A stretch of DNA of 64,000 bases from Polytrichum commune. Its lineage: Eukaryota > Streptophyta > Polytrichopsida > Polytrichales > Polytrichaceae. The stretch is taken from contig OX485805.1 in assembly GCA_950295325.1 (NCBI GenBank), positions 31,173,501 through 31,237,500 of the forward strand, given 5' to 3'. A program made the translations under genes and the position numbers. Positions 28,973 through 59,804 of this stretch are shown piece by piece. Position 1 is the stretch's first letter; every line of letters starts with the position of its first letter. The notes under the pieces are model-generated. The model made no database searches, was not told where the DNA came from, and saw nothing but the letters and a program-made list of their open reading frames with translations.

Positions 28973-29485
28973 CTGCGGATATGATCGAGAGAAAACGGTG
29001 GGCAACTTATGTCATGCTATGTCCAAAGGAAGCATTAAAGAAACGAGCGTTCTCGGTGCAAAAACAAAACCATTTCATTCATTTTGGAGGGGGTGCAACA
29101 AGAGACACAAGAGAGGCAAGAGCATACAACATACATTCAAACACAGGATACAAGTATATAGGAGTTAAAAATGGCGATTATATTGTATACAATGCTCTAT
29201 GTACATCTTGATTGGGGGGAGCCGCGTTGAACGATGCGTTCAAACTAGCCTACTTCTACATCTAGCAAAAATTGAAGAGACAGGCCGCCGTGATGAAGAC
29301 TTCGTCGCAAGTCGAGGGTATGTGGACGAACGAATGGTCGGGGGGATGTGGCGAAAGGCGCGAGTGCGGGGGGGGGTGATGTGTGCGTGAGTTTAGGGTA
29401 GCTAGGGGACACGACCAAGGCAAGAAGTCAAAGACCCAGGGAGTTTGGGTCGACCGACCCAAACTGAGTGGGGTCAGTGCATTAC
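28973..29485 (-). other. Intron with one 20 bp dyad
   Basis: Donor GAG|GTAATG at 29,485 and acceptor ATCCGCAG at 28,973, phase 0 on both sides. A perfect TTTGGGTCG-AC-CGACCCAAA dyad lies at 29,444-29,463, close to the donor. If unspliced, translation would end at the TGA at 29,474. Confidence 0.6.
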
Positions 29486-30426
29486 CTCGCCTTGGTCGTG
29501 CCTCGACGACGTTGATGCCGGCATCGCGTGCGCTGCCCCACCTCTATCACCGCCGCCTCCGACGACGACGTCAGCCACAACCTGCTCCTGCAAAGGCTGA
29601 CTGTCAGGCCTTTGTCCCAACCCAACCTCCGCATGCGCATCATGCATTGGTTCATCGACTGGGTTAGGAGTAGAGGTATCACCAGGCCCTTGCGGGCCTT
29701 CAACATCTAACATGGGCTCGTCCACCGGGGTCTGGTCGGGGACGGGGTTTGGGTCGGCCGACCCAAACCCTGCTGCTTGGCGAGCGTCGCTCTGGGACGC
29801 TGCAACGTCGGCACTGTTTGGGTCGGACGACCCAAACATGTGGGGGTCGTCCCGCTGGTGGTGTGGGGGCAAGAGGATGGGAGGCCGAAGCGGCGGGGGT
29901 GCCAACGAGCTGGAAGATCCGGGGACGCGCCAAAGGTTGGGGTCGTCCACCTGCTGGACGGGCGCGTAAGGGCGGGCGTGAGGCTGCAGCAAATGCCCGA
30001 AGCTGAAGGACTGCTGCGGCATGGGCCGCGGGCCGATATCCTGTGGATGGAAGCCTGCGGGCAAGTGAGGGAATGAACTCGGGGGAGCCATCACCAATCC
30101 CTGCGCCAGCATGCCCTGGATCACTTGCGTGATCAGGTCCGCTTGGGACGGAGGTGGGGCAATCGCCCTTTGCCGCTCCTGCTCCAACAGGAGAGCCCTC
30201 AACTCCGCGACTTCGTTGCGGACCAAGGGCTCCTCGGCGGCGGCCTTTTGCAATCGGACGCGCTGCTCCTCGTCCTGGAGCATCTTCGCGTTGGCCTCCT
30301 CCACGGTGAGGACCTTGGGTTTCACCCTCACATTCCCAGCGAACCCTCCGGGGGAGGCAGGATTCGACCTGAGCCTCTTCGTGAGCTCCATGTCGTCCTC
30401 GTCTTCGGAGCTTATGGCGATCGTCT
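29486..30426 (-). CDS. Large gene, exon 3, 3' part (Pro-rich, downstream of CACTA insertion)
   Basis: This is the continuation of the exon cut by the CACTA element. It begins at the TSD (AGA on the coding strand) and reads TIAISSEDEDDMELTKRL, with no need for the internal Met as a start. A charged helix (about EEQRVRLQKAAAEEPLVRNE) is followed by a long Pro/Gln/His-rich disordered region. Two genomic dyads fall inside the frame (29,748-29,767 and 29,817-29,836) and are translated as GFGSADPNP and MFGSSDPNS. With the upstream half, minus one TSD, the exon is 1,422 nt, exactly 474 codons. Confidence 0.75.
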
Positions 30427-30459
30427 CACTATAAGAAACCCGCGTTTTTTGTTACGTCC
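30427..30459 (+). repeat. CACTA left terminal inverted repeat
   Basis: Starts CACTATAAGAAACCCG, then a G-T6-G-T-T-A-C-G-T-C-C segment. Preceded by the TCT target duplication. Confidence 0.92.
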
Positions 30460-31901
30460 TTGCTCATGTCCTGGGAGACATTGTGACATCCGGGTTTACA
30501 TCCTTCGGACGTACTAACGCGTGTAACACGTTGTAACGCGCGGGGACATCACAAAAAACGTTTGGACATCCGTGTAACACAGACGATTTTTGGAGATTTT
30601 GGGGGGATGAGAACTGTGCCCACTGGGCACCACGTCGAGGACACCTAAGCAGTAGAATGGCGGGCAGTGCCACATGGCCGCCAATGTCATCCTATCCAAT
30701 GGTGACGTGGAATATGACGTGGCGTCTGACATGGACCCAGGAAAGAGTGACGTGGCAGCCACGTCAGCATTCATTTGAGTGGTTTTTTTCCCACATTGAC
30801 GTTCGCGAGTACGTCACCAGAAACATCGTTGTGCTTTCAAAGACGTCCCAAGATGACGTGGAGATGTCACGCTTGTTGTCTACGATAACGCGGCCTTGGT
30901 TTTGATGCTCATTTCGTTGAACATCGCCATGTCCCTGAGGACATGGCGATGGACATGAGGATGTCCTTGATTGCGTTGCCCATCCGTGGTCGTGGGCATT
31001 GTGGGTGTCATGACAGACGTCACAGAGAACATTTGCGTGTCTGTAGTGACATCTTAGCGTGCATGTTATTGCTGACGATGTGTATGTGATGGTGTTTTGG
31101 CGGATGCGATACATGCTTTGGGAGATAGGAATAATGTTTATGTGGACGTCAATGTCACCGCGCGGATGTCCGGCCGGAGACGTTCTAAACTTAAGCAGGG
31201 CGTCCATGAAAACATCTCGCGGGATTTTAGGGATGTTATGCAAAACACTGCCATTACTCGACAATCAGTCCTTCAAAACATGTTCACGTCACGTCTTACA
31301 TGTTATAAAAACATTTGCAAAGACATGCAGTTGTTGTGTAAAACATTTCAACGTAATTTGGCAATTATTATGGAAGACATGCTCATGTTCACAGAGTCAT
31401 CGACGAAAACATGAACACCTCACGTCCAACGCGGGGAACGAATATAATCATCATCACACAGTTGATCCGGGATACATCCCCGTGTCACGAATTGGTAGCT
31501 CTAGAAGACGTCATCATAATCACGTAGACGCCGCATAAAATATCCCCACATCATGTTAAACATGCGCCATGAACATCATCCTCATCGCAGACTCGTTCAA
31601 TAGAACACCCCCCTATTAGTTAGAAAATGTCATAAGAAACATCATATTAATGATGCAGTCCTCCGGGATAACATTCCCACGCCGTGCAGGACGAATTATA
31701 CAAGACATCCGCCGACATACCTAAAGTCTTTGTGGCATACTGACGTCAACATTCAGACGTCCTCTGCGACGTCCCCACATACTCTTGAGACATCCCTACG
31801 TCATGCCCTACATGTCCAACAACACATCTCTACTCTAATGCATTGTTCTCACGAAGCACCAAAATAACCCGTTCCAGAGTTTTTGTTGCAGGCCCTTTCG
31901 T
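30460..31901. other. CACTA subterminal region, repeat-rich, no gene
   Basis: Dense in short words such as GACATCC, GACGTC, ACGTGG and GTGACATC in both orientations, the kind of subterminal motif cluster that TNPA-type proteins bind in En/Spm. ORFs up to about 166 codons occur but overlap on both strands and lack domain features, so they are not called. Confidence 0.6.
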
Positions 31902-31943
31902 TCATTTCTTCTTTGCCGCCTCTGCTCTTGTTGAGGTGCCTAC
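31902..31943 (-). CDS. TNPA-like gene, exon 6 (terminal, 13 codons and stop)
   Basis: Acceptor TTGCAAGTGCAG before GTAGGCACC; phase 0; reads VGTSTRAEAAKKK and a TGA. It is a basic tail that could add to nuclear targeting. Confidence 0.5.
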   Translation of the reverse strand, partial: VGTSTRAEAAKKK

Positions 31944-32135
31944 CTGCACTTGCAAAATGAAGGCATGTTATGGATGATGTCTTTGCACAAGATATCATCA
32001 TTTAGGAATAATGTAGTTTTCCCCATTTTCACGACACCAAAGGGTTCAGGGTTCAACCTACCCAAACACAAAGATCCAAAATGAAATGTTATGACAAACA
32101 AGTCTGCACATGGAGCGGGTTCAGAGTTTTCTAAC

Positions 32136-32333
32136 CTTCTCAGGTGGTTTCCCCTGTTTGGACACTCCTGCTGGCTTTGTTGCTTTCGATGCAGCTGTTG
32201 GCTTTTGTGTGTCGCTCTTCCCCGGTTTAGAAAGTCCTGCAGGCTTAAATGTCCTTGATAGAGACTTCAGCATGTTACCTTGTTGCATTCTCAGCGTTGC
32301 ACCTCCCTCTCCCCCAGGTGTTTCCATGTCCTC
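32136..32333 (-). CDS. TNPA-like gene, exon 5 (basic Lys/Pro/Ser-rich)
   Basis: Acceptor GCGGTGTAG before GAGGACATGG and donor GAGAAG|GTTAGA enclose 66 codons in phase 0. The product is rich in S-K-P and K-P-A-G units (KPAGLSKPGK, KPAGVSKQGK), a disordered basic segment. No domain is recognised. Its place in the transcript rests on matched phases only. Confidence 0.5.
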
Positions 32334-32743
32334 CTACACCGCCAATTCATCATTACATGAAGACACTTGTCCCAACATGCACAGTAAACATTCACATTGT
32401 GGTATGTAGAGAAGAGAAGTTACAGGCCCATGTACACTCATCCAACCTAAATGCTAATTGGCCTACTTGCAAACGTGGTAGTATGCGATACACACAATTA
32501 AATATATGAATCCATGCGCTTCATAGTCATTACACGAATGAATGAAAAAACAAAATACTCAAAATTCGGCGTCGCAAAACTGTCTTGACAACAACTCAAC
32601 ATTCTCCTCTTCGTGAACATGTCCATAGATGTCTTCATGGACGTCACAGAAGACGTCACTGCGTTTCCTAGTTGATTTGCAGACGTCTTTCTGAACATGG
32701 TGACGTCTACATGACCATCACAACACGACCTACATCAGTTTAC

Positions 32744-33367
32744 CTTCTGGGCGAGCTCTCCAGGCGCGGGGGTATCCACAATGGCGTAGGCGTCGTCCTC
32801 TACAGCCTTGTCCACCACCTCCGGTGGTGCTGTTGCACTGGCATCTACCTCTCCGTCCATTGTGCCCCCTCCTTCGGCCTCCACCATCAAGGTCCCTCCC
32901 CCGACATCCTCCGCAGCGGCCATTTCCACCTGCTCTTGCCCATGCGGATGCGACACCCCCGACGCAGCAAGAGTTGGCGAAGGTGGCCTCGCAGTCTCTA
33001 TGATGGCCGTGGGCGCTGGGGTCACCTGCAAAGCCACAAGATGAACTGTATCCTGAAGACTAGTGGATTGCGTGACAGTAGAGTCCGTGTGAGATGCCTT
33101 TCCCGCTAGGATCTCCCGGAACATGGCCTCCATGCGGGAGGTGGACTCATCTATCTTGGTCTCTAGGCGCTTGTTGGAAGCGTCTATCTTGGCCTCTAGT
33201 CGCTCATTTGTTGCATCCATCTGGCCCTGCAGCTCAACCAACCGGATCTCCAAGTCCTGTACGTCCTCGTCCGGATCACCTCGCGCGCTTTCCCTCTCCT
33301 CCTGCAGTCGTTCCTCAATCTCTTCGACTATCTCAGATTCCCAAGGCTCCCGGGAATGACGCAGAGT
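32744..33367 (-). CDS. TNPA-like gene, exon 4 (coiled coil)
   Basis: Acceptor GTCGCTGGCAG before ACTCTGCGTC and donor CAGAAG|GTAAAC give 208 codons in phase 0. A heptad-patterned segment follows EPWESEIVEEIEERLQEE, with near-repeats of D-A-T/S-N-E/K-R-L-E-A/T-K-I-D, predicted to be a strong coiled coil. The C-terminal half is Ala/Gly/Val-rich and acidic. TNPA-like proteins of CACTA elements carry comparable dimerisation helices; the equivalence here is inference. Confidence 0.6.
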
Positions 33368-33689
33368 CTGCCAGCGACAAACATGCAACGATTTCATAGT
33401 CAATATTCTCGAATGCGTTTACGGAGGTATACGAGGACGTCCTGAAAGACGTAACGAGCAACGACGATGCGACGTGAGGATGTTTTCACAGACATCCTCT
33501 GACGTCTCTAACAATTCAGAAGGCAGTTCCATGGACCCTTTGGCATGCACACAGAGTCGTATATTCTCTGCCAAACAATACGCAGTGGATCGGTCGGGAA
33601 TGCCAGATTTCCTCCTACACAATAAAACAACTACTTCAGGACGATCTACACAGACTTAGAGTCCTCTATTACAAAGTGCAGGCCAATAC

Positions 33690-33973
33690 CAGTTTCACCA
33701 CCGCAGCCTCTCGAAGTGATGCCATTTGAGTTTTGGAGTTGGAACCTTTTCCCTTTGCCACTTTCCGCATCTTCTCCGTCGTCAGTTTGGATTCCTCAGT
33801 TGCCCTCTTCCGCACAAGCCTGTTCCATTGATCATCAGAAACTTCTGGTGGCTTGCGCTCCTTCTGGTCGATCATACGGTTCAACCGGAATCGCCTGTTG
33901 ATCAGTATCTTGTTCACTCTTACTTGGATGTACTCCGGTTCCATAGACTTCCGCGCCCCCTTCACCACCCAGC
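33690..33973 (-). CDS. TNPA-like gene, exon 3 (Transposase_24-like core)
   Basis: Acceptor GCGTTTGTAG before GCTGGGTGG and donor AAACTG|GTATTG. The product reads GWVVKGARKSMEPEYIQVRV, then the diagnostic-looking K-P-P-E-V-S-D-D-Q-W-N-R-L-V, and a basic K-G-K-G-S-N-S-K-T stretch. The P-x-x-V/x-x-x-Q-W-x-x-L-V spacing followed by a basic S-K-S/T motif is the pattern of plant Transposase_24 (Ptta/En/Spm) proteins. Splice phase follows exon 2 exactly (one base carried over). This is the main reason for naming the gene TNPA-like. Confidence 0.6.
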
Positions 33974-34385
33974 CTACAAACGCATGGACAACATTCCCAA
34001 AAGGGCGAGGTTACTCCGCTGGGAGAAGTATGCAACGTCACGTTCACAGTAGAGCACCGCCAGCAAGTTTTTGCGGGGCTTCCAGAAGTGTTCTCTGGGA
34101 CATCTATCGACGTCATCTTGGACGTCGGCGTATGTCACCCTCAACGTGCAAACGTACAGTTCCACAGCCTTGTGTCGACATGGACATCGTCCGGTTCACA
34201 AAGAATACAACATCCTATCCAATGTAAGTTGATGAAGGCTACTTCACAGGAAAGCCACGCATTGAATTGTACAGGAATGTCACATAATGTTACTGAAGGT
34301 AGAGAGGATGTTCGACACAGCATGAGTCAAAGGAGTTTAAATGTGAAAAGGTGGGAGGGTTTCTGGAGTGATAGTCATGTCGTAC

Positions 34386-34693
34386 CTTGCCATAGGCGTT
34401 TGAAGAATCGATCCTTTGTCGCCTCCGCTTGCTCCACAAAGTTCCCATTGGGATCCAAGTCCCTCGCCAGAGATCGAAGATCCGCGTGGAAGGCTCCCAC
34501 CAATGCCCCGTAAGGCTCTCCTTTCTCGTCCACAGTGATGGGTTTTTTTTCGACTGCATGCTCGCGCTGCATCGACACCCGCCGGACGTTGCGGGGAGGA
34601 GGTGTATTCTCCTCGGACATTTCGTCGTCTTCGGTGTCCTCGTCCTCGGCATCCTCTTCCTCCTCTTCGTCGTGTTCATTCTCGAATCCCCGG
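34386..34693 (-). CDS. TNPA-like gene, exon 2 (acidic, then Transposase_24-like start)
   Basis: Acceptor GTTGTGTAG before CCGGGGATTC and donor TGGCAAG|GTACGA. It begins with a strongly acidic run (EHDEEEEEDAEDEDTEDDEM) and continues to YGALVGAFHADLRSLARDLD and KDRFFKRLWQ. Two bases carried from exon 1 complete its first codon in frame. The acidic run may be an activation or interaction patch. Confidence 0.6.
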
Positions 34694-35020
34694 CTACACA
34701 ACAGACAGCCGATCCTTCATTACACATGAAAAACTCCAAACATAGGCAGCCCTGGCATCACCTACATTGTGGATGATGTCTGCACATCCCGGAGAACATG
34801 AGCGTGTCCTGCCAAACGTCTAAGATCACCGTAGTGACGTCTAAAAGAAGCAGTGTCCAACATGGTGACATCCCCGACAGCGTCTAACCAGCACCATGAC
34901 GTCCACATGGACATCTCCATGTTCTCCACCGCGATACAGGAGATGTGTGAGTCTACAACACGGGGCGACCAACTTCCAAAGACACATGTTACACTACGGA
35001 TATATGTAGAAGACACTCAC

Positions 35021-35268
35021 TGTATCTCCCGTTCCTGCTCCGGCTCCTTCATCCGCAAAGTGGCCTTATCTTTTGCACGGATGAGGGGTCGCACTTCGTG
35101 GCGGATGCCATTTCCTCTCGGCGCCGCGCGGATGTCGTGCCTGTTCTTCGTCCGCCGCTCCACAACCGCCTCTACATCATCAGCGTCGTCCCCATCGCTT
35201 GCCTCGGTCTCCCACCTCGATGGTGGAGACCGAGGTCGCTTCTTCGATTTGGCGTGAGCGTTTGGCAT
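35021..35268 (-). CDS. TNPA-like gene, exon 1 (start, nuclear localisation signal)
   Basis: The ATG at 35,268 begins MPNAHAKSKKRPRSPPSRWE, with a clear basic nuclear localisation signal, and ends at donor ATACA|GTGAGT. Six exons together give 1,704 nt, 567 codons plus stop, with canonical GT-AG junctions throughout and consistent phases, so the gene looks intact. It is transcribed away from TNP2. In En/Spm, TNPA-type proteins bind subterminal motifs and TNPD/TNP2 cuts; that role is assumed here by family. Confidence 0.6.
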
Positions 35269-35274
35269 TCTCAC

Positions 35275-36545
35275 GCGTCTGCGCGGCCACCCAACAAAGG
35301 CCTCCCCCTGCTTCGGCTAAGGCCAGGAGCAGTACACACAGAATTTAGAGGGATAGCTAGATACACATACTCAATACACAACAATCTATATAAGTCTCGC
35401 GAAACATAAAGTAGAATGAATAGAACCGAATCAGTGCGGCGGTAGCCCAAATGCTGTCATTGAAATGAATTGAATATCATTGGGGACCAATTGCTCGGGA
35501 AAGCATCCAAGGTAATTGATGTATAGCATGTGTAGAAGAATGGCCGCCTGACACAAATGAATTTCGAAATTTGGAAAGTCAAAAGCCAAAGGTGAGATGA
35601 ATTGAGAAAGCTTTCTTGTTTGTGCTGCATCAAAAAAATTCAAATGCCTTTTGCCCTCTGAGCTAATTTGTCCATCGGTCAGGGGATATGTGTTTCGGGA
35701 CCGACTTATAAACCTCGCACACCGAGGCGGGTTTCTTATCAAACACCATTTTTACAGCGACAATGAACCTCTATACTCTAGTCACAGACTGGAAATAAAA
35801 AGTCACTAGCACTATATCTCGAAAGTTTCTACAGTCTTGTGGCACACAGAAATTAGAAAATTATCTCTTGAAATCTGCGAGGAGATGTTCCAAATTAAGT
35901 TTTCCGAAACAACATCAGAGCAAACCCAATCATAAACAACACGAAATGATAAACAACACTCATAGATTTGCCAAGTTTAAGCCTCACCTCATGTAGTTGT
36001 TCGCCTGCACAAGAATTCTTGAACCGGCACTCAACACATACTGAATTTACCAGGTGAGTCACACATAAATTTCTCCGAGCACCAGCACGGACTTCTTACA
36101 TATTGGATGCATTGACCTAAAAAACTACAGAGCTAGCATGGTGATTCATGACGAAAACCAAAGAATAACAGAAAGAAGGCGAGCATGATAATTCATGGAA
36201 CATGGTGACCATGCAGCTCATCCAGTTAAACTCACCTAGTAGAGAGTAATAGTACTGACTACCACTCGTAATCCCACTCCTCATGCAAGCTCAAAAGAGA
36301 ACTTCAAGTTGCCAGACTCTTTGTCGGTCCTTAAAGTGTAAGTCCTCTCCTTTTAAGAATAACCACCTTTCTGGAAACTCCAAAGCTTGCAAGACTCATG
36401 TGGAAAATGCAAAGTGTCGAATACGCAAGAGATGATGACGACGATTCAGACTGACAACATCCTCTGACATCTAACCTCACAACTACCAGAATTTCAAGAG
36501 CCACTCATAAATAGGGAGACCTAGATGCATAACATGGTGACGTCT
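35275..36545. other. CACTA interior; one unidentified ORF, otherwise nothing
   Basis: A 103-codon minus-strand ORF at 35,431-35,742 (containing FPNFEIHLCQAAILLHML) has no recognised family. It is upstream of the TNPA-like start, so it could be an upstream exon or noise. The rest lacks ORFs. Confidence 0.35.
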
Positions 36546-37621
36546 TGTGAGCCCAAAATTGATGCCCACATTGATTGTTAACACTTGTAAAACATTACAA
36601 GTGGTGTTTTGGTGATTTATGATTATTCACAAAAATATAAAAAGAGTGAAGCTTGAAGAAAGCTTAGTTTGAAGCATTAGGCTTTTGTGGAGTGGATTTA
36701 AGTAGGAGAAGGACAAACCTTGGTAAAGTGTGGTAGGTAGAAAGCCAAGGTTAGTTAAATGTTTGAATTAGGATCATTGTTGATCATTTGAGGGAAGAAG
36801 GCTTAGGAGATAGGATAAGAGCCTACAAAGTAGGAGGAAATCTCGAGGGCTTATCGTGAGCCTTGAGGGTGCTCACCCCCTCAAACTCACTATATAATCC
36901 CTCATTCTTCCCTCACTCATCCTCTCTTTCTTTCGTGCTCCTTGGCACTCCACGTGTTATAAGTGTGGGTGCGTGGGAAGCAAGATATGAGCACGTGTGT
37001 GTGCATGGATGTAAGGTTAGGAGCCAAGGCTAGTTGGCCTTGAAAAGGGCTTGACCTCTTGTTAGTAATAGTTGGGCGTGAATGATTTAAAGTTCAATTT
37101 ATGGCTTTGTTTGAATACTTAGATTTACATTGATTAGCCTTATACTTATGCGGATGTGCAAAGTCTCTTATTGGAGCATTTAGTTTTGTTGGACTTCATA
37201 TGAATTTTTGAGAGCCAAAAAACCGAGACTATGTCCAAACTTCCAAAAACTAGTGAAAAAATGTAGGTTCAAAGAGAACATCGTAGAATTGCGACCATAT
37301 ACTTTGTGGCAGTAGAAATATTATTGCATATTCATGTAGAGGACTTCATTAGCTATCCATGGATACCAAGAACTCATTTTTTGGACTTCATATGAATTTT
37401 TGAGAGCCAAAAAACCGAGACTATGTCCAAACTTCCAAACTTCCAAACTTCGAGATTAAGGAGTGTAAGAAGACATAGTATAGACTTGGCTAAGTTGCGT
37501 ATATTCCAACGATAGATTGGAATCATACATTGTGTTACAAAGAGAGAAATCTCTACATGTCATTATAAACTTCTCCATTCGGGCTAGGACGAAATTGAAG
37601 GGTGGAGGCTTTTTGGTGACA
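36546..37621. mobile_element. Probable solo LTR nested in the CACTA element (1,076 bp)
   Basis: Starts TGTGAGCCC and ends GGTGACA (TGT...ACA ends). Flanking 5-mers are CGTCT (36,541-36,545) and CGTCC (37,622-37,626), a target duplication with one mismatch. Inside is a promoter-like stretch, TATATAATCCC (about 36,891) followed by a CT-rich initiator region, as in LTR U3/R. It contains two 60 bp direct repeats near 37,192 and 37,383 (TTGGACTTCATATGAATTTT). Flanking DNA on both sides has the GACGTC-type words of the CACTA interior. No coding sequence. Confidence 0.5.
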
Positions 37622-38645
37622 CGTCCCTGAGGACAGCCCTGCAACATTACAGAATACGTCGACACGTCAATCGAAACATATAAAGCTCCCACGCCCTAAA
37701 ACCGCCAGACGTCTCCGATAGCGTCCGGATCGCGACAGATGAAAGTAGCAAACTGGCAACGATCACGGCTAAGGCAGGAGGTTATAAGGGGTGAAATCAC
37801 AAAAGGGCCCACAGATGGAACACGTCTCCAAGCTGTGCACGGCATGCTACATGCGGCAAACCCTAACCGAACCCTTAAGCTGTCTTCGAGAAAAGGGGAC
37901 CGTGTCGCATAACATGATGACGTCCCCGACTGCGCTAAAACATTACACAAAATGTTGACATGTCTAAAAGCCCTACCTCGCTCGCAACATCGGCCTTCAA
38001 AAGCAACGACGCCTCCGACAGCGTCAAGAATGGCAGGATAAAGTAACATGACCCTAAACCCTTCACAAATGAATTGTTGCTGGCTCATACATCAGTACAG
38101 AATTCTAAGCCTGGGTGCTACATTCCACAATTGCAGCTATGAGTTACCTAGCACTACAATTGTTATTTCCAAAAACTAAGGTCACAGGAGTACACTAAGA
38201 ACTGACATTCGCATGCAAGTTCGAGAGAACAAGCTGGAAACACATTTCAAAACTAACGAGCGTTGGGGAGCCATGGTGTGCGTTTCACAGACCTCCCTCA
38301 ACGAGGCCGACTGTCCAGCTCCTCGGAGGAGCGCCGCTGCTAGAGAGCTCCGACCTGGAGCAAGAAACCGCCGCCCCCAATACCAGATCGCCGAATGCGG
38401 GAGTGCCTGGAGCTGAGTGCCGAATGCGGCGTCTCCCGAGGTGACGCGAAGACGTCTCTGGGGTTAGGTGCAGGGAACTAATACCCCTGCCGAGAGCCAA
38501 TAACCCGACCCCCTAGGACCCATAACCGCGTCTAAGTGACCTACCAAGCTATACATGTGCACTGACGTGTCTGGGCATGCACTAGCAACGCCGCCAAGGT
38601 CTTAACTCTCGGTACCTGCAGAACTTGTAGGGTTTGCAGTGAATT
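37622..38645. other. CACTA interior, repeat words, no gene
   Basis: GACGTCCCCGACNGCGT-like words recur (37,917, 37,998), matching copies at about 34,866. ORFs here overlap on both strands and are not supported. Confidence 0.45.
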
Positions 38646-38979
38646 TCAAATGTGCAATACCTTTTGTGTTGTGCGCTTCTCCGATGTGGGCTGCTCTGAT
38701 GTGGGCTTCTCCGATGTGGGCTGCTCCGACGTCGATGGAAGCGATTGGAGTGCCTCCACGGGCTTCAGGAATCGCTGGCTACGGCGCAACTGCAAGGTGG
38801 GTATCGGAGGCTTCTCCTTCATGGTTGAGGCTCCGGGGGAGACCCTGGCAACTTGTTCGACAAAGTTGTTGAAGATTGATACAGCGGCGTCATTCACGCT
38901 CATTTGTTGCACGTGCGCAGGTAATGTGTTTAGGGTTACAACACCAGAATCAGGCAATGCGATTTGTGGGTTTAATGCC
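38646..38979 (-). CDS. Unidentified exon-like ORF in the CACTA element (TSE-Q/K-P repeats)
   Basis: The ATG at 38,979 begins MALNPQIALPDSGVVTLNTL. The product has a mixed helix (NDAAVSIFNNFVEQVARVSP), a short basic patch (LQLRRSQRFLK), then a four-fold repeat TSEQPTSEKPTSEQPTSEK. A donor-like CAAAAG|GTATTG near 38,661 suggests it is spliced on. No family is recognised. It lies between the TNPA-like gene and the plus-strand genes, so it is an accessory gene of this transposon if real. Confidence 0.4.
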
Positions 38980-39336
38980 ATGATGATATGAACTCTCTTT
39001 TGCAAAATGCCCTAAAGTAGGGTTTCGAAAAAACCCATACATGAAGTGCATGGGCCCTTCGCTGTTTGTACTGCTTGTAGATGAAACGTGCTCGAATCTA
39101 CGGCGACTAAAGAGGTATAGGTGCAGGATGTAGGGAATGGGTCAACATTATGGACTAATCTAAATGATGTCATAAAAGTCACTGACAATTCCAGGAGACA
39201 CGGTGACATGCACGTGCTGACAGATATGTCACTAAGAACACGACGACGTCACCTATAACGTCAATGTCCACGTCTGCAAGCTGCTTGCGGCATGCTTCAT
39301 TGTCAATAATGCTTGTGCACTGGGGCTTATTTGCAG

Positions 39337-39533
39337 ATGAAGCATGTGTGTTCCAAGACGAAGAAACCATGTGACTGCTTATGCCACGATTGTGGCCGTG
39401 ATAGGTGGGGCTGCCTTAAACCACCTTGCATATGTCCGTTGCAGGTGAAGTGCATGTTCGGGTTGGATTTCGCCGTGCGCAAACAACGTTTAAAGTGCAA
39501 GTGCCGCTGGAAGAACGGTCGGGTGCTTCCAAG
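39337..39533 (+). CDS. CACTA accessory gene, exon 1 (Cys-rich)
   Basis: Begins at an ATG directly behind an acceptor-like TTATTTGCAG, so an upstream non-coding exon is possible. The product has Cys-rich zinc-binding-like spacing: C-D-C-L-C-H-D-C, then C-L-K-P-P-C-I-C and later C-K-C. The donor CTTCCAAG|GTGGAT leaves two bases that pair in frame with the next exon. A short alternative reading ends at a TGA at 39,567. No family is recognised. Confidence 0.45.
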
Positions 39534-39736
39534 GTGGATGTGCAAGTGCAAAGTCAAGGCGACTTGATTTTTGGTAAATGCCTATCAGACCTCTGCGTAA
39601 TGCGATGACGTCTTCGTGGATGTCATCGTAAATGTTGCCAAGGACATCTGTAGTTAAAATGTCTTGTCGTAAAGAACATTCTTAGCGATATTATGAGAGT
39701 GTGTACATCTAAAGGTGTAATGTGACACGATTACAG

Positions 39737-45087: not shown

Positions 45088-45313
45088 GTGAGTTCCTCTT
45101 TCAGCACATTCAGTTGCCCTTGTCAACAACAGTGACTAGCATCGACAGGATGACATTAGGACGTGAAACGCATGTCCATGTTTACATCGTCCAGAACGTT
45201 GCCATGTTTTGGAGGACGTTATGATTAATTACTTGTGCACGTCATTTACAATGTCAACATGGATGTCCAAATGTTACTGGATACGTCCCGAACGATCATT
45301 TCCAATGTTACAG

Positions 45314-46957: not shown

Positions 46958-49201
46958 TGTGAGCCAAATTTTTGGTCATTTCAGTTCAACTATAGGCTTA
47001 TCGTTTAATTCGGATGGAGTCATCCAATAGGATGAATATAGTTAAACCATAGGAGGAAGTTATAACTATTGTCACGGCCATAGGAGGCCCTAGTAGGCGG
47101 TTACGGAAACTATCTTCTCCTCGCCTCCGTAAGAGGGCGGCCGAGGAAGGAGAAGCCAGACATTTCTTAGATCATTGTTGAGCGCAGTGTAGAACAAATT
47201 GACTTGTCTCCCTCGACACTGATTGTGTGAGGATAATATTGAAACTATATTCTGAGGAACTGAGCAATTACCGCAGTGATTGCAGGATTGCCAGACTCTG
47301 CTTATGTTTATTTTACTTTTTGATTATTGTTGATGGCTGAATCAATGTCGAACTATTGTTGTGAGTGGAATACATGAATGAGAGGTTGGAAACTATAGTA
47401 TGTGGAAACAATTACATTTATCTGGGTATGGATTGACAAGCATAACTGAGTGACCTATAATCGGAATAGAAATGAGAAATGAGAACTGTTGCGGAGGAAG
47501 TAAAGTGGGAAAGGAGTTGAGCAATTTGAGAAACAACAGAGAGTATGAGATTGAGAGACGTACGTGGAATTGTGGAATGATAATGAAGTGAAGACGATTA
47601 CTGCAAGAGATGGAATATTGTGTAACTATCGTCTGAGTGTGAGTAATTGAATATGGTTGAGTAAAGAGGAACTGTGAGTTAAGAGTGTGAGCATTGTTGA
47701 AGAAGGAAGCTAAGATTGAGTGAATAGTCGTTGTTGCGAGGAATGTAGAGATAGAGATATGAGAGTAACGTAAATAAGAATTGAGTCAAACTATGGGCAG
47801 GGGAGTCCTTTATAATCCGAGCTTATGTTATATTCTTGGCCGAAGAAGGTGAGATTGAATTGAGAGAAAATGAGAAGCAGTGAGAGCGAGAATTATCAGC
47901 GAGTAAATCAAAATTGGTGTAACAATGAGCACACGGAGGAAAGTGGAATATAGTTGCACCTATTGGTCTCGTAAACTGAGGGGGTAAATCGATCGATTGT
48001 GAGAGAAACCTGTGGTCGAATTGAGAAATAGATCTGGAAGAAAAGATAGAATTTAAGAGAGGAATGACGAGAGGGAGAGAAGAGGCATAAAACTATGGAC
48101 AGAGGAATTGAAAGAACATAGTTGAACCATGGCCAAGTGGTAGAAGAAGTTGGAAATTTGAGTGTGCAGCCTGGAGTGGAACTTATGAGCGAGGGACCCT
48201 GTGAGAAGGCAGAAGGCCAAGTGTCAGAGCCGAGAGTTAATCAGCATATAGTGTCACTATGGGCTATTGTTGAGACTTAAGTTAAACATTGAGGTGAAGT
48301 GTAAGGCCAAAGGCCAGCCCATGAGGTGAAATGATTATTGTTAACCAGAAGAGAGGCAGAAAAGAGTGAGGTGACGATAGTGCGGCCGAAAAGAGATCAT
48401 AGTTGAATTTGATATCTTAGGCTGTTAGAGTTATCATTTGAAAAGTGAGTTTAAGGAGAGAATCTTAATCAATTGAAGTGATGAGAAATCACTTCCGATC
48501 AATTGATTAGGAAGAAAAATGAGAGATATAAGAGAGATTCAATGAACTTAGAATAGGATTAACTTTGGAGTATAAAGGAGACCTAGGCATAAGTTAATCT
48601 AATCTTAATCAAGTTTTAATGGTTAAGTAGTCAAGAGATGAGATCTTTGGGTATGGAATGCGATTTAATCCTTTCAACTATTGTCTTGTGTGTTACCCTG
48701 GTTGTTGTTGTTGCAGGTTGTGCAGGGCGACCAAGACTATAGCTTGACGGATAATGGTTAATTGCATAAGTTGTGAGTAATGATTAAATCTGGAGATAAG
48801 GAATAAACAATTGTTTTGTATTGGAATTAACATTGACCAAGTAATAAAGGAATTGCCTTGAATTGAAGATGCATTGGCCAATGGTTACCAAAAGACAATT
48901 GTGTTACTCAAAGACTATTGTTCTCTCTTGACTATTGTTCTACAAAATCTCATGACGAGATGGTTACTACCGAGACTGACACACATACCCCACTGACTGA
49001 GACACAGTGAGAGGAAACCAAGAGAGAAAAGGAGAGTAAAAGACATACCAGTCATGTTCTAGAGTGAATATAGCAAACCCTTTGGTCTAATTAAGGAACT
49101 ATGAAGTGACAAATGCCTGTAATAGACACTAGTTAAGCCTTCCTTGAGAGTCTGTACCCTGGTGTTTTGGGTTATTTAAGTGAGAGCAAAAACTAACTAC
49201 A
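46958..49201. mobile_element. Candidate long LTR-type insertion in the CACTA element
   Basis: Composition changes abruptly to purine-rich GAGA/GTGAG-type sequence without ORFs. It starts TGTGAGCCAAA and ends AACTACA; ATTCC flanks both sides (46,953-46,957 and 49,202-49,206). TGT...ACA ends with a 5 bp duplication fit a 2.2 kb solo LTR, but the right edge was chosen by searching for the repeat, so chance is possible. AT-rich DNA follows to about 49,500. Confidence 0.35.
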
Positions 49202-49206
49202 ATTCC

Positions 49207-49862
49207 GGTGTTGGTACAGAAGTGGGAAAATAATACTTTAATATTTTTTAATATTTTTTAAGCAATTTAATATACAAGACTGAACTGAATATGACCGCTT
49301 TAATTACGGAATTATTGGATTTTATGAAATACTAGCAGGTTATAAATTAATTTGTATTTATTTTTTACATTACTTTTTAATTCCCTAAACATTTTCATTC
49401 GAAGCGGACAAATCGTAAATTAAGAGGATCATAGTTAATAAATATAATCAATGTATTCTTTAGTTTTATATATTATAAATTTAAATTTAAATTTTGTCAC
49501 ATAACTTTCTTTGGAAATGCCACATGGCTTTATTTTCTCCTCTTGCACACCGTTGCCCGTTTCGGTGATTTTGGGACGTTGGGCTGCTTTCTACCTTGCA
49601 CAGCACTAACTTCCACATGTTCAACCCAGGCGAAACGGTTGTCCACTGCCAGCGTGGCAATTGTCCGTACGCAAGGATGTCTTCGACGACGTCCCCCGAG
49701 ACGGGTGCGTCGTTGGAGACATTGTCACGTCTCCTGTTTCACACGCGCATTCCGTGACCCTACCCCCTCCATTGGTCCTTATTTACGCATGGACATCCTC
49801 CCGTTCACGGGGACATTACTGGCTAGCTCGAAGACATCCCAAAAACACGCTGACATGATTGG
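49207..49862. other. AT-rich segment, then right subterminal CACTA sequence
   Basis: Bases to about 49,500 are AT-rich with no features. From 49,560 the GACGTC/GGACATCC words return (GACGACGTCCCCCGAGACGG, GGGGACATTACTGG), leading into the right terminal inverted repeat. Confidence 0.5.
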
Positions 49863-49895
49863 GGACATAACCAAAAACACGGGTTTCTTATAGTG
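49863..49895 (-). repeat. CACTA right terminal inverted repeat
   Basis: Reads CACTATAAGAAACCCG on the minus strand from 49,895 inward; followed by TCT, the same target duplication as on the left. Confidence 0.92.
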
Positions 49896-50379: not shown

Positions 50380-50655
50380 CTCCACATAGGAGTAGATGTT
50401 CAACCCAGACATTTGCACAATCCAAATCAATAGTATTAGTATCACCAATGAAGAATAAGGAAAAATGACACCCAAAACAAAACAATAATAGTTAGTTTGG
50501 GTCGAGCGACCCAAGCAATGCATGCCCTAGTTTGGGTCGCTCGACCCAAACAATGCATGCCCTAGTTTGGGTCGCTCGACCCAAACAGACCGTGCCCCTA
50601 GTTTGGGTCGCCCGATCCAAACTGTCCATATAGTTCCTTCAGGTTATTTGCTTAC
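50380..50655 (-). other. Intron with four 20 bp dyads
   Basis: Donor GCCATG|GTAAGC at 50,655. Dyads at 50,496-50,515, 50,531-50,550, 50,566-50,585 and 50,602-50,621 all follow a CTAG or TTAG, and three follow a CCCTAG, giving a 35 bp near-tandem spacing. Centres are AG, CT, CT and CC. The first and last have one arm substitution each. Confidence 0.7.
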
Positions 50656-51987
50656 CATGGCTGCGAAAACCGGTTTGGAGCCCCCGAAGACATTGAAGAT
50701 GCAGTCCCCTCTCTTCGTGAGGGTCCTCATCATCCGCAGGTAGAACTCCATGCGCAGTTCATCCGCGGGGTAGTTGGCGTACTTCGCATCGTCGTACAAG
50801 CTTCTGCTGGAGCCCAACCCTTCTTGAACTTGGAAGAGCTTCTCCATCCTGGCTATGGGATGGTTTGGCACCTTAAGTAGCTCAGCTTTGTACACGAAGT
50901 ACAAGCACAGCACGTTGACGATCCTCGTCTTCTTGTCTTTCAGCGTGTTGTACGCCCCCTCCGCCGGTGCAGCAACGTAGTGAGATTTTGAGACGGCGTA
51001 CTCTGGCTGCAATTTCCGCACGATCTCGTACACCTGCTCTGCCCTCCTGTCCTCGACAATCCACAGCCAGACGTCGACATCCCTGAATTTGGGGCTACCG
51101 TAATCCACAAACTTCGTGAAGAACGGCTCGTAGAACGGGGTGCTCATTGTCCCCTCAAATGAGGCTCCAGGGATGTTCCTGAAGTCTATCATTCCGAAGG
51201 GGAAGCGGTCCCCGGCTTTTGTCCTGATAGCCTTTCTGGCATCAGAGCCCAGCCAACCTTGGATCTTGAGAGGCTCGAGGGTGACCAAGTTGAAGTAGGC
51301 GTCGCCCTCGAAGCTGACGATCTTCTTCTCCTTTATAAAGTTGGAGAAGGCACGCGTGGAGTGTTCGGGAAGCACCCGGTTCCTCCCCCCCTTCACAAGC
51401 TTGGACTTCAGGAAGTCGTCTCCCGCCTCCCTGATGAGTGCCGCCATGGACGCACTGGTGAACTTGTAGGCGGCTTTGAATGCCCTCCAGTGCGCCTCGT
51501 CGACCTCTCCATCCACTATGAGCTTCCTTTCCGGCACCAGCTTGTGCAGCTCCTGGACGATGGTCGTCTTTTTTTTCCTATTCTCCGTCCATTCCTTCAT
51601 GGTGTAGCATGAAGGGACGAAGATTTTGGGCTTGATGAAGACGATTTTCGGGTGGATCCAGCATCTCTTCGCAGTCGGCTGCACGTGGAAGATGTGGGAC
51701 GCCGCCTTTCCCATCTCTGTCTCCGAGAGACCTTGAAGAGCTCTGAAGAACTCCCTCACCAGAGGCTTCATTTGCTTGAAGCGCGCAGTCTGGTTGAAGA
51801 GCAAGCCGGTGTCAGGATCCATGAGGTCCCCCGTCTTGTGTTTCTCGAAAACACTCTTCCATCTCCCCCACACGGAGTCAGACGTTGTGATCAAATCAAT
51901 TTCTCCTCTTAGCTCATTGTACTTCTTCTGCTTGTGGGAAGTATTGTCAATCGAGGAGAATTTGTTGATCATCTGGTATTTGAAGTC
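50656..51987 (-). CDS. Large gene, exon 2 (444 codons, unidentified)
   Basis: Acceptor TTAATGTGCAG before GACTTCAAATACC and donor GCAGCCATG|GTAAGC, both phase 0. The product begins DFKYQMINKFSSIDNTSHKQ. It contains a segment with Rossmann-like alternation (FRDVDVWLWIVEDRRAEQVY, then VNVLCLYFVYKAELLKVP), which could be a degenerate methyltransferase-type fold. No catalytic motif such as a clear D-P-P-Y/F is present. Length and lack of stops argue for real coding. The fold suggestion is weak. Confidence 0.65.
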
Positions 51988-52120
51988 CTGCACATTAAGT
52001 AAATAACACACGTTAGAAAACTGCGAATGCAAGCTTTGGATCGATTGACCCAAACTATAAACAAGACGAGAAAAAGTAAACAATGCAAGAGTTTGGGTCG
52101 ATCGACCCAAACATATTCAC
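51988..52120 (-). other. Intron 1 of the large gene with two dyads
   Basis: Donor AAATGGGAG|GTGAAT and acceptor TTAATGTGCAG, 133 bp. A perfect dyad (52,092-52,111, centre AT) sits eight bases from the donor and a degenerate one at 52,035-52,054, so about a third of the intron is dyad. Confidence 0.75.
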
Positions 52121-53446
52121 CTCCCATTTTGGGTTCTTGTCTTTAGCATTCTCCCTTTCCTTGGGAGGCCTGCCGTAAAACTCCCACACCTCCCTCGAGG
52201 CCATGATGTTCCGAATCCAGGATGCCTGGTACGCCCTCTTCTTGTTCTCCATGTTGAAGAAGCGTGAGATGTCGGTTACTACGGTCTCGTTGTCAAACCA
52301 AACCACCAATGCCTTCCACACCTTTATCTTCTCCTTTTGGTTATTGGGGTCGTCCCACTCGGTCATTAGCTGAATTTTTTTAGAGGCCTCCACACTGTGC
52401 TGGCCGTCAATCAGCCAGAAGTCGTCTTTGCATATTGCCGGCCACATTTCAGGCGTCGGCATTCTCTTCAGCCCTTGGGGCATGACAACAATTGTCTGCC
52501 TGTCGTCTTTGAATTGCCCTCCCAAGATCTGAGCGACCATCCAGTCGACGTAGGCGTCCTCCTTGGCTCGGACACACTTCTTAGGTGGCGCAAGGTGGCA
52601 CTGTGCAATGTTCACCTCGAACTTGAAGTCCTTGCCCATGAAGAAGCAATGCAGGCACTTCGTCTCGAAGTTATCATTGATTTTCTGTATCTCGCCTGCA
52701 TCCACCTCTTGGCCAGGTTTCGGCATCCGCAGCTCCGGGGAAACTGGCTCGGTGGTCATGACGGAGGACTCTCTCGCCCTCTTCGACGGGGTCGTCTGCC
52801 GGCTTCCGGACGGTGTGGGCGTCTCGCTGTCAGCCGGCGTTCCTGTAGTGCTAGTCCGTCTGGAGTCTGCAGGGACCGGATGCGGCTTCCTCACAGTTTG
52901 GGGTCTGGACGACCCTGCGCCTTCTTCTGCCATTGCCTTACGCCTCACAGGTTGCTGCGTTTTGGCTTTACTTTGCAGCGCCTTGTTGAGGACTGTGATA
53001 GCCTGTTTCAATTTTGTAAACCTACTTGCAACCTTCGTGTTGGTTACATTGCCATCTATGAAAATTGTCTCCGGTTTAATCGTTTCAGGCTCCACGCATG
53101 ACTCCTTGGCGTATATGGTGTCGAATGACTCGGAGAACTGGTGCATGAACATGTGGGCGTTTTGCACGGCGGAGTTCTCGAGAATTACGTCCACGTAATT
53201 CCCGAGGGCTTGGACGGACGCAACCTCCCATCCTGTCAACGTTGTCCAAGTGTGGTTCTCGTGGGTCCCTACTTTTACCACGAACAGGAGCTTGAACTGG
53301 GAGCCCTTTACAACCTGAACTGACCACGCAAGGACGAGCCCATCCTTGGGCACGTATGAGTCGTCCTGGGGAGTTTCATACTCTTGCCATATTACGTCTG
53401 GCGCGAGCATAAAGAACCTTTCTCCAGGTCTCTTCTTGGGGGCCAT
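52121..53446 (-). CDS. Large gene, exon 1: ParB/DGQH-like protein
   Basis: The ATG at 53,446 (MAPKKRPGERFFMLAPDVIW) directly follows an acceptor-like GGACTTACAG, so a 5'UTR intron is likely; an ATG four codons upstream is less likely. After an unassigned N-terminal domain and a Ser/Thr/Pro/Arg linker, residues about 300-400 resemble the ParB/sulfiredoxin fold. There is an E-D-A-Y-V-D-W-M-V helix, a QTIVVMPQGL strand, then FWLIDGQHSVEASKKIQ with the D-G-Q-H motif. In prokaryotes this fold is found in ParB CTPases and DGQHR proteins. Its role here is unknown. The full gene (exons 1 to 4) would be about 1,630 residues, now split by a 19.5 kb CACTA element. Confidence 0.65.
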
Positions 53447-55231: not shown

Positions 55232-56574
55232 TAACCATCTGTTTTTTAAAGCGTTGATTATAAGTTATGAAAGGTTGCTAAAATTCAAATGAGTTCAAGG
55301 GTGAAAGTCCTCACCATCTTCTGATTCAACCTCTACTCTTCCTAAGATATAGCCTAAAGATATGTACTTAGGCCAACTAATTTTCTAATTTGAAGAAGGA
55401 TGAATGGCCAAAATCCTCTCTTTTAAACAAATTGTATTTAAAATTTCCTACATTTTTTTATCACATAGGTTGATATCCTATGTTCTTAAATTGTGCATAG
55501 GCTCTTTGTCCTACACTTTCAAAATTTTATAGGCTAAGTCACTTATTTTTTAGGCCGCATTTGTATTAATCACTTTATTCGTTAATTTGTGATGGTTTAG
55601 GTAGGACGACCCAAACATTAGACTATGTTGTTCTGGTCTTACAATAAATATGGTTCTAAGCCCTTGAAATAATTGGATGACTTTATGGTTATATTCTCAA
55701 ACCTAAGTTTGATCCAAGACTTCATGTATAACTCTACTATGATGTATAAAATGGCCCCCACCCCCACCTCGCACCCCACCAAAGCTTTTGTACAAGTTTC
55801 TCAAGATTTCAATCCCTTGTGCTTGTGATCATTTCCTAATCCACTAGACTATTTTCTCTAATTAGTGTGGGTTACCATTCGGAGCTACACATTTCTGTAA
55901 CATTTAATAGAAAGTATTTTTTTCATCCAAATAACTTAAGTAGGTAGTATGCACACGAAAGATTATGATCTGACTTAGTTGGTAAAAAATGATAATGTCA
56001 GTAAAAATTTATAGCAAGACATAATTATGAAGTGCACAAGTGCACCTCTCGTTCATCCAACATACAGCCTTTAAATAGTATGTAACTTGATCTCTGGAGT
56101 ACACTAAGGTGCTACATAAAATGTGTTATTCTACAAAACTAACCATTTATATAGCCAATGCATTCTTACAACAAAACTTTATGCTAAACTAATACTTAAC
56201 CCCTACATACATGACACCATACCCTAAATTTTCCAAACACATTGAAGGCATTGGTTTCTCTTTTGTTTGACCATGTTAGGAAAACCATACAATTGCGTGA
56301 TATTTAACAATGTAATCATTGACATCTAGACTTTACCAATGATGCCAACAACTCACACGATATTGAATGAATAAAAAAAGGGTCCCACACCCCCCAACAT
56401 GTGGAACAATTTAGAATACGTGAGTGTGGAGCCTATTAAATGAATACCTTCCCCAACTGCATTTTGTAAGGGTTTTGAAATGCATGATCCTTATTTGAAA
56501 ATACTAACATGCGCAAGTTTTAAGTACATGATTCCGTGAGATCGTGACTTTGATGAATCGCAGAGTCGCCAATA

Positions 56575-57370
56575 AACCATGGTTCACGATATATTTAATA
56601 TATAGATTATGATATAAGAGTAAATCAGAGAAGCACAACATGAAATGAAGCCATTCAAGCAATCATGTTGTTATTCATTGTTCCCTCCATGTATATTAGA
56701 TGATGGCGCAAGATAAAATAGATGTTGTTTGTATATGGGGGCATCAGTGAACCACAACTACATTTGGTGTTTAGGGTTTAGGGTTTAGGGTTTAGGAGAT
56801 AGGGTTATAACATATTAATCTATCCAATGTCAATGTATAACATTGTCTTACTCGTGAGAAGAGTCTTATAGGAAGGTTATAGTGAAGACGATCTTGATTA
56901 TGTTAATTTGTTATTTGAGACGTTTAAACGCGATATATTGATTGGTCTTGTGTTTATTCAAATAACATGAAATATTGTGGATGTTAATAGGGGCTAGGGG
57001 TCCAACTTTGGATGTTTCGCTCACTTTAGGGAATCACATATTAGTCGCTAATAAACCATCGTTCATGATGTATTTAATATATGGAATGTGATGTAAAAGT
57101 AAATCGGAGAAGCACAACATCATGTTGTTATTCATTGTTCTCTCCACGTGTATTAGATAATGGAGGAAGATATAACAGATATTGTTTGCATAATATGAAG
57201 AAGAGTCTAATCGGAAGGTCATAGTAAATACAATCTTGATCATGTTAATATGTTATATGGGACGTTTAAACATGATATCCTAATTGGTTTTGTATTTAGT
57301 CAATACGCATTTCATGTTGTGGATGTTATAAGGGTTTAGGGTCCAATTTTGGATGTTTTGCTCTCACACA
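56575..57370. repeat. Tandem duplication of about 480 bp, diverged
   Basis: ACCATGGTTCACGATATATTTAATATAT (56,577) and ACCATCGTTCATGATGTATTTAATATAT (57,056) begin two copies. Both continue through AAATCnGAGAAGCACAACAT, CATGTTGTTATTCATTGTTC and AAGAGTCTnATnGGAAGGT to GGATGTTnnGCTC. The first copy carries the telomere-type tract. Confidence 0.7.
56770..56796 (+). repeat. Interstitial telomere-type tract (TTTAGGG)n
   Basis: Three perfect and one partial TTTAGGG units, the Arabidopsis-type plant telomere repeat. A shorter tract is at 57,521-57,539. These are too short for a chromosome end; they are typical scars of break repair or telo-box-like motifs. Confidence 0.85.
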
Positions 57371-57963: not shown

Positions 57964-58069
57964 GGAGCGCACCCCCCAAAAGTCGGTCATTTTTTTCTCT
58001 TCTCTCGTTGTCGAATTCGTAGAGAGAACTCTTAGTAGGAGCTGTACTTCAAGGTTTGTGCATGCTGCC

Positions 58070-58128
58070 GTTCACGAGCACTTATCCACAGCATGCAAGT
58101 TCATGAGCACCTATCCACAGCATGCAAG
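58070..58128. repeat. 29 bp tandem duplication
   Basis: GTTCACGAGCACTTATCCAC and GTTCATGAGCACCTATCCAC begin two copies, each ending in AGCATGCAA. Confidence 0.8.
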
Positions 58129-58267
58129 CCCACTGTGAACTTTGCAATGAGCTGAAATTCAACACGCCACGCAATATCCGCCGCATCATACGCCGGATTT
58201 TGTGGTGTACTTGGGCGAACCTTCACCTTTCCACTAGTGTTGGCGGGTTTTGAGTCTGACCCTATGA

Positions 58268-59804
58268 GGTTTGGGTCGACCGACCCAACTCTGTCCACTA
58301 GTGTGTTAGGGTTTATGTCTGACCCTTAACAGGTTTGGGTCGATCGACCCAAACCCCAACCCCAGTGTGTTAGGGTTTTTGTCTGACCCTTAACAGGTTT
58401 TGGTCGGTCGACCCAAACCCCAACCCCAGTGTGTTAGGGTTTCTGTCTGACCCTTATCAGGTTTGGGTCGACCGATCCAAACCTGTCCACTAGTGTGTTA
58501 GGGTTTATGTCTGACCCTTATCAGGTTTGGGTCGGTCGACCCAAACCCCTACCCCAGTGTGTTAGGGTTTTTTTCTGACCCTTACCAGGTTTGGGTCGAC
58601 CGACCCAAACCCCTACCTCGTGTGGGTGGATGTACCCTTGTGAGGTTTGGGTCGGTCGACCCAAACCCCTACCCCAGTGTGTTAGGGTTTTTTTTTACCT
58701 TTATCAGGTTTGGGTCGACCGACCCAAACCCCTACCTCGTGATGGTGGATGTACCCTTGTGAGGTTTGGGTCGGTCGACCCAAACCCCTACCCCAGTGTG
58801 TTAGGGTTTTTTTTTACCCTTATCAGGTTTGGGTCGACCGACCCAAACCCCTACCTGGTGATGGTGGATGTACCCTTGTGAGGTTTGGGTCGGCCGACCC
58901 AAACCCCTATCCCAGTGTGTTAGGGTTTTTTCCTGACCCTTAGCAGGTTTGGGTCGACCGACCCAAACCCCTACCTGGTGTGGGTGGATGTACCCTTATG
59001 AGGTTTGGGTCGGTCGACCCAAACCCCTACCCCAGTGTGTTAGGGTTTTTTCCTAACCCTTAGCAGGTTTTGGTCGACCGACCCAAACCCCTACCTGGTG
59101 TGGGTGAATGTACCCTTATGAGGTTTGGGTCGGTCGACCCAAACCCCTACCCCAGTGTGTTAGGGTTTTTTTCTGACCCTTTTGAGGTTTGGGTCGACCG
59201 ACCCAAACCCCTACCTGGTGTGGGTGGATGTACCCTTGTGAGGTTTGGGTCGGTCGACCCAAACCCCTATCCCAGTGTATTAGGGTTTTTTCCTGACCCT
59301 TAGCAGGTTTGGGTCGACCGACCCAAACCCCTACCTGGTGTGGGTGGATGTATCCTTATGAGGTTTGGGTTGGTCGACCCAAACCCCTACCCCAGTGTGT
59401 TAGGGTTTTTTTCTGACCCTTATGAGGTTTGGGTCGGTCGACCCAAACTCCTACCCCAGTGTGTTAGGGTTTTTTTCGGACCCTTATCAGGTTTGGGTCG
59501 ACCGACCCAAACCCCTACCTGGTGTGGGTGGATGTACCCTTGTGAGGTTTGGGTCGGTCGACCCAAACCCCAACCCCAGTGTGTTAGGGTTTTTTGTTAC
59601 CTTTATGAGGTTTGGGTCGACCGACCCAAACCCCTACCTGGTGTGGGTGGATGTGACCTTGTGAGGTTTGGGTCGATCGACCCAAACCCCTACCCAAATG
59701 TTTTAGGGGTTCAGTGTGACCCTTGTGTGGTTTGGGTCGGTTGACCCAAACCCCTATCCCAGAGTGTTAGGGTTTCAGTATGAGGTTTGGGCCGGTCGAC
59801 CCAA
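58268..59804. repeat. Array of 26 palindromic dyads in 119-120 bp dimer units
   Basis: Each half-unit of about 56-64 bp holds one TTTGGGTCG-NN-CGACCCAAA dyad, a CCCCTACC-like stretch and a short linker. Alternate linkers are GTGTGTTAGGGTTTTTTTC-ACCCTTA and GTGGGTGGATGTACCCTT. The dyad centre alternates AC and GT in step with the linkers, so neighbouring dyads are reverse complements of each other. I count 26 dyads; a few have one arm mismatch (about 58,394, 58,461, 59,067, 59,362, 59,730, 59,785). The ORFs across it only reflect the repeat. Confidence 0.93.

Follow-up and report, generated by a model that had tools for sequence, protein, structure and literature searches.

The DNA analysed here is a 64,000-nucleotide stretch of the moss Polytrichum commune (contig OX485805.1, positions 31,173,501 to 31,237,500), referred to as the window and located at C3:31173501-31237500 in the 408 Mb of genome that was searched. 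It carries a family of 20-bp dyads, TTTGGGTCG-NN-CGACCCAAA, with 9-bp arms. These dyads mark a high-copy transposable-element family, called F1, plus part of a second one, called F2. Comparison of diverged F1 copies indicates that the dyad arms are under selection, and the dyads may be recognised by a protein that F1 itself encodes.

A dyad family carried by transposable elements

The window was found to hold 43 dyads at up to three mismatches, compared with 0.03 expected by chance, and none of 100 shuffles got to 43; 27 of the 43 are exact. The original prediction had described dispersed copies together with a 26-copy array, and such a family does exist, with 26 dyads within the array (58270-59805) and 17 dispersed, 16 of them at no more than two mismatches and one, at 27122, with three. 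All 43 fall in a single transposable element, F1, at 26568-63650. Neither positions 1-26552 nor a CACTA element nested in F1 contains a dyad at one mismatch or fewer. The half-sites earlier reported for the CACTA element were not recovered as exact ones (0), while 1-26552 holds one.

Genome-wide, 9,731 exact copies of the dyad were counted, against none of a mirrored control pattern. The dyad is therefore not private to this locus, contrary to what had been claimed, and a unique locus or a host gene cluster is ruled out. The 100 dyad places listed all belong to contig C1, and 81 of them fall in three F1 stretches, two having both exact terminal inverted repeats (TIRs) and one having only one exact TIR, and the remaining 19 lie in F2.

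Within F1, the dyads occupy the introns of a gene read from two exons, P0001 and P0002, the arrays before divergent genes, and the 3' end. Six dyads stand directly upstream of P0001 (53475-53973), two in the predicted intron that separates P0001 from P0002 (52035-52111), four in the predicted intron after the P0002 exon (50496-50621) and three at the 3' end (starting at 29444, 29748 and 29817; 29444-29836). Two of the 3' dyads sit inside the open reading frame of the last exon, and in other copies long frames likewise span dyads at this position. A degenerate dyad with two mismatches is found at 55596-55615, and the 26 array dyads belong to a 64/56-bp tandem array between two divergent genes (58255-59805). 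Degenerate dyads such as TTTAGGTAGGGCAATCCAAA also form part of a 98-bp subterminal repeat that was read by eye at 26727-26999, and the 28-bp F1 TIR contains no dyad. The consensus unit of the 64/56-bp array also contains GTGTTAGGGTTT, and a short telomere-like GTTTAGG run lies inside F1 at 56769-56796.

Conservation of the arms, the spacer and the centre

In an alignment of nine F1 copies that spans P0001 with its introns, the array upstream is poorly aligned, some copies are without some dyads, and one (L056) shows none at its 3' end; all nine have dyads both in the P0001-P0002 intron and upstream of P0001. Using the divergent copy C1_21 as reference against six others, the arms of non-array dyads (6-10 per pair, a minimum of 16 aligned arm positions being required of each) were 93-99% identical, compared with 56-60% for the flanks and 40-64% for the centres, although the arm value may be somewhat high if the dyads themselves served as anchors for the alignment. 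In the pair with the window copy, two dyads gave 100% for the arms, 73% for the flanks and 50% for the centre. Fourfold sites of P0001 in the C1_21 pairs are near saturation, with 64-70% differing and 30-36% identical. The arms have thus outlasted both flanks and synonymous sites (93-100% versus 56-73% and 30-36%).

The 20-mer also stays the same while the repeat around it changes. The window and C1_21 copies have tandem units of 64/56 bp, and copy C3_15 has units of 78 and about 158 bp, with an identical 20-mer, and altogether this one 20-mer is carried by units of 64/56, 78, about 158, 57, 35 and 32 bp. When spacers of 0-12 nucleotides were searched genome-wide, the spacer was 2 nucleotides in 9,731 of 9,905 places.

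The two centre bases had been described as free, which holds for the 12 dinucleotides other than pyrimidine-purine (YR) steps, all of which occur as a dyad centre, but not for the four YR steps, which are nearly absent. Such steps were found in 38 of the 9,731 exact genome sites, a count in which the dyad copies are not independent of one another; all 38 are CA or TG, and none is TA or CG. In the window and the retrieved sequence, YR centres occupy none of 258 exact sites and 5 of 339 at up to three mismatches, compared with 23% of the dinucleotides of the F1 element. Because TA centres are common in the dyads of other lineages, the YR-poor centre is a rule of the F1 dyad only.

F1 genes and copies, and the dyads of related elements

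The F1 element comprises about 17.6 kb of its own sequence plus the nested CACTA element, and is bordered by a 4-bp target-site duplication (TSD), ATTT, at 26564-26567 and 63651-63654. Its ends were obtained from three 20-kb stretches around P0001 relatives, which are near-identical to one another. The 28-bp TIR, AACACTATATTCGTTAAATTGAGACTTT, starts with AACACTA and lies at 26568-26595 on the plus strand and at 63623-63650 on the minus strand; the 26-mer left when the first AA is dropped was found 332 + 346 times in the genome. A matching 4-bp TSD was seen in all 10 C1 copies checked at their ends and, among the 13 copies for which both ends were read, in 12, including the window copy and C3_15, with C6_97 as the exception and the left end of C7_25 outside the count. 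The copy at C6:9695001-9715000 (L005-L006) lacks a matched target duplication, and its left flank aligns with the interior of another copy; it is perhaps a nested insertion or a recombinant. The C3_15 stretch is 85-92% identical to the window copy.

The P0001 exon (52127-53446, minus strand, 440 codons) carries a LIDGQHS motif, and with the P0002 exon (50647-51990, minus strand, 448 codons read) it probably belongs to one multi-exon gene, with splice sites placed from the reading frames. The nested CACTA element (30427-49895) has both of its ends, with the TIR CACTATAAGAAACCCGCG, a 3-bp TSD, TCT, a Transposase_21 match (E 1e-57) and a DUF4216 match. It disrupts the last exon of the P0001/P0002 gene, so the window copy of F1 is broken; the part of that exon 3' of the insertion is an open reading frame at 29477-30424 (minus strand), open through two dyads. 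P0001 is under purifying selection in the one pair compared, the window copy and C3_15 (dN 0.047, dS 0.726, dN/dS 0.065).

Downstream on the same strand is a NIF (CTD-phosphatase-like) gene at 28160-29008 (PF03031, E 1e-12). At least 69 of the 97 listed P0001 matches are followed, 3.5-6.5 kb downstream and in the same orientation, by a NIF match, and this transposon-borne gene is 92-97% identical among 149 other best-scoring matches of 1,245 candidates. The DUF7869 gene (60006-63099, plus strand; PF25273, E 2.9e-35 at 61575-62258) has an interrupted reading frame in the window copy and is a putative transposase; its DUF7869 frame and the first frame, 60006-61151, for which a Pfam scan gave no match, probably form one gene. 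No literature on DUF7869 was found in open-licence PubMed Central.

A rough first look gave 1,103 candidates for P0001, 1,245 for NIF and 1,324 for the frame at 60006-61151, from which at least 97, 150 and 108 genome-wide matches, respectively, are reported. Among the best 97 of the 1,103 P0001 candidates, the last two being halves of one copy, 65 were free of internal stops by hand count. Three P0001 matches on C3 (10615605, 10699380 and 10783222) are about 84 kb apart and have the same scores; a DUF7869-gene match precedes each of them by 5,476 bases, and the arrangement looks like a tandem segmental duplication. In a weak search of viral contigs with few peptide patterns, neither P0001 nor the DGNHR alignment described below found a relative, and an origin from a giant virus or phage was set aside. 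Elsewhere in the window, a hAT dimerisation-domain fragment lies at 17192-17899 (Pfam E 3.2e-6), and no RNA family of Rfam matched at gathering scores.

The F2 representative, F2a (C1:2149501-2167500), has 61-bp inverted repeats that are 87% alike; a few bases beyond these, a 10-bp duplication, AGTTGGCATG, was recognised by eye. One of its genes has a sub-threshold SWIM match, and the first exon of another bears the motif WDGNHR; F1-type dyads occur in the predicted intron of the former and upstream of the latter. Relatives of the DGNHR exon led to two further elements, F3a and F3b, both without the F1 dyad, which contain 20 sites of GGTTTCGG-NN-CCGAAACC and 22 of TGTCTCGG-NN-CCGAGACA, respectively, at up to three mismatches. 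The DGNHR-encoding elements are MULE-like. The F3b, F3a and F2 dyads occupy 1,310, 267 and 523 genome places, compared with 0, 1 and 0 for their mirror controls. F2 and F3 dyads adjoin the DGNHR gene, and F1 dyads stand beside and within the P0001/P0002 gene.

Sixteen further DGNHR loci, hand-picked to span diversity, were scanned blindly for exactly recurring inverted repeats, and a CG-cored dyad was recovered in nine, with cores TCTCGG (L040-L043), TTTCGG (L038, L039 and L049) and GTGCGT or TGTGCG (L052 and L053). Close DGNHR relatives share dyads, the TCTCGG core being common to F3b and L040-L043 and the TTTCGG core to F3a, L038 and L039. In L047, ATTGGCGG-NN-CCGCCAAT was found at one mismatch. 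No inverted repeat recurred three or more times in the control stretches (window 1-13000, 13001-26000 and the CACTA element), and the F1 dyad was absent at up to three mismatches from the 19 loci L035-L053. The F1 and F2 dyads occur together in L028, L029 and L030, the F2 dyad alone in L052 and L053, and the F1 dyad alone in the 4-kb locus L027. One locus, L038 (C4:49686501-49692500), has two different dyads, with GTTTCGG and GGCCTCGG arms, somewhat like F2a.

A search by tblastx for a protein common to F1 and F2a gave 1,310 pieces inside F1, of which 74 are clear of any dyad; the highest-scoring of the 74 reached 33 bits (E 0.004), outside the F2a TIRs, and the candidate was rejected. Further tblastx matches, at 18151-20000 of C3_15, fall outside the F1 element. 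In its C-terminal part, the DGNHR protein bears a weak resemblance to N6_N4 DNA methylases, judging by two PF01555 matches below cut-off, one at E 0.0042 for two exon pieces joined by hand and one at E 0.1; three other segments matched no family, and P0002 gave no N6_N4 methylase match in profile searches. Neither P0001 nor the DGNHR alignment has a credible ParB match in Pfam, NCBIfam or PDB sequences, the likeness being one of motif.

Proposed function and comparison with known systems

It is proposed, at about an even chance of being right, that the dyads are sites for a dimeric DNA-binding protein, that this protein is likeliest the P0001/P0002 product of F1 itself, and that its likeliest job is to derepress F1 copies as VANC does for VANDAL elements. 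A symmetric protein dimer would bind the dyads and bring about sequence-specific derepression (anti-silencing) of element copies, and the dyads would be selected as cis-elements of a multi-gene element, maintained in its introns, in tandem arrays and between its divergent genes. Dimer binding, the identity of the binder and anti-silencing over plain autoregulation are all three inferred from sequence. The lineage-specific forms of the dyad suggest a lineage-encoded binder, and anti-silencing is favoured because the layout matches that of VANC motifs, including the presence of the motif in an unrelated element.

Several observations weigh against this proposal. P0001 and P0002 match no Pfam family at E values up to 5 and no solved structure beyond chance, and their single-sequence models (pLDDT 35 and 33) are too poor to use. 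Profile comparison did not support homology between P0001/P0002 and the DGNHR protein (6%; 0.1%, no better than a reversed control), which leaves a motif as the only protein link between the families. No CG-cored dyad recurred exactly in seven of the 16 DGNHR loci (L044-L048, L050 and L051); short or imperfect dyads alone were read by eye from tandem units in L044-L046, L050 and L051, and none was recognised by eye in L048. The commonest recurrent inverted repeat is instead GTTAGA with a spacer of 1 in F3a and AAACCCTG in F2a. Dyad and protein do not track each other strictly, as shown by the F3a-type core in L049, which is 43% identical to F3a, and by the F1 dyad in F2a. Finally, centres are mostly TA in F2 and L049 or AT in L038, so that palindromes nest and the 2-nucleotide spacer is there a reading.

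Four other explanations were weighed. The suggestion that selection acts on a dimer site or a hairpin fares differently in its two halves: the arms, the 2-nucleotide spacer, the centre and the varied repeat units give good support to a dimer-type site, while a hairpin or cruciform, in RNA or DNA, is extremely improbable. Arms that are 9 bp long and perfect would suit such a structure, yet a compensated arm pair was found in none of the 16 sites with two or more mismatches, the arms retain their sequence and not merely their pairing, and a loop would need neither a spacer fixed at 2 nor a shortage of YR centres. Passive homogenisation by unequal exchange and element amplification, with no selection on the dyad, is also very improbable. 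The arrays do consist of repeat units and many copies are young, but the arms are unchanged between old copies with 64-70% fourfold difference and across different repeat units, and it is shown in part that they exceed the flanks in conservation where old copies carry the site singly and not in tandem.

If a protein binds the dyads, it could instead be a transposase, with the repeats serving transposition and not expression, which is judged rather unlikely. F1 does have degenerate subterminal copies at 26727-26999, and DUF7869 and MULE-like proteins could bind repeats; the dyads, however, are mostly internal, in introns and in the array between divergent genes, with none in the TIR, and F1 and F2a share the dyad, yet no common transposase was seen in the dyad-free tblastx comparison. 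The dyads could also be ordinary sites of enhancer activity or autoregulation, to which a host transcription factor or an element protein binds while silencing is left unaffected; this too is unlikely, though slightly less so: the dimer-type site and its location in introns and between divergent genes would suit it, whereas lineages in one genome differ in their dyads, which is unexpected if one host factor served all. Alongside derepression by the P0001/P0002 product, a broader and doubtful speculation is that a new class of element-encoded dimeric regulators, possibly fusions of a ParB-like and a methylase-like part, arose in two DNA-transposon kinds of one genome. Each lineage would use a private palindrome as an anti-silencing self-code, and some elements, such as F2a with its F1 dyad, would add the code of another to borrow its protein.

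Among known elements, CACTA (En/Spm) transposons have TIRs holding CACTA, subterminal repeats, a 3-bp TSD and Transposase_21. F1 likewise includes CACTA in its TIR and has subterminal repeats, but it differs in its 4-bp TSD, two extra A at the tip and a DUF7869 gene instead; no Transposase_21 match was found in the F1 frames scanned, which were not every F1 frame. Chapaev (CMC) transposons also have a 4-bp TSD, and the likeness of F1 to them rests on TSD length. Bacterial parS sites are clustered palindromes without a 2-nucleotide spacer. F1 dyads are likewise clustered palindromes, and the DGQH/DGNHR motif recalls ParB-like N-terminal domains; they differ in the spacer, and no credible ParB profile match was found. 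In open-licence PubMed Central, no such palindromic system was described in titles and abstract starts, and among the matches listed for CGACCCAAA by title none was on a transposon.

The closest comparison is with VANDAL elements. VANC motifs are reported to be short and dense in non-coding parts, introns, upstream regions and fast-changing tandem repeats, they vary between related VANDAL families, and they also occur in the unrelated element AT9TSD1; the VANC21 motif, YAGTATTAY, is arrayed in one orientation (PMC5735166, PMC10398659). F1 dyads are similarly dense in non-coding regions, tandem repeats, introns and upstream regions, they differ between lineages, and the F1 dyad is also found in the unrelated F2a; the F1 motif differs in being a palindrome with a 2-nucleotide spacer and a YR-poor centre. 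Unlike VANC, P0001/P0002 has no Pfam match and hence no DUF1985, and F1, known here from sequence alone, has a 4-bp TSD and a DUF7869 gene and no MULE backbone. Sequence-specific anti-silencing by transposons is already known from the VANDAL elements of Arabidopsis. If the proposal is true, F1 would add a second system, built on palindromes, in which a single genome holds several private codes and two unrelated elements share one of them. The YR-poor centre provides a sharp biochemical prediction, and it could then be asked if such systems recur, how protein and motif change together, and whether elements borrow protection from one another.

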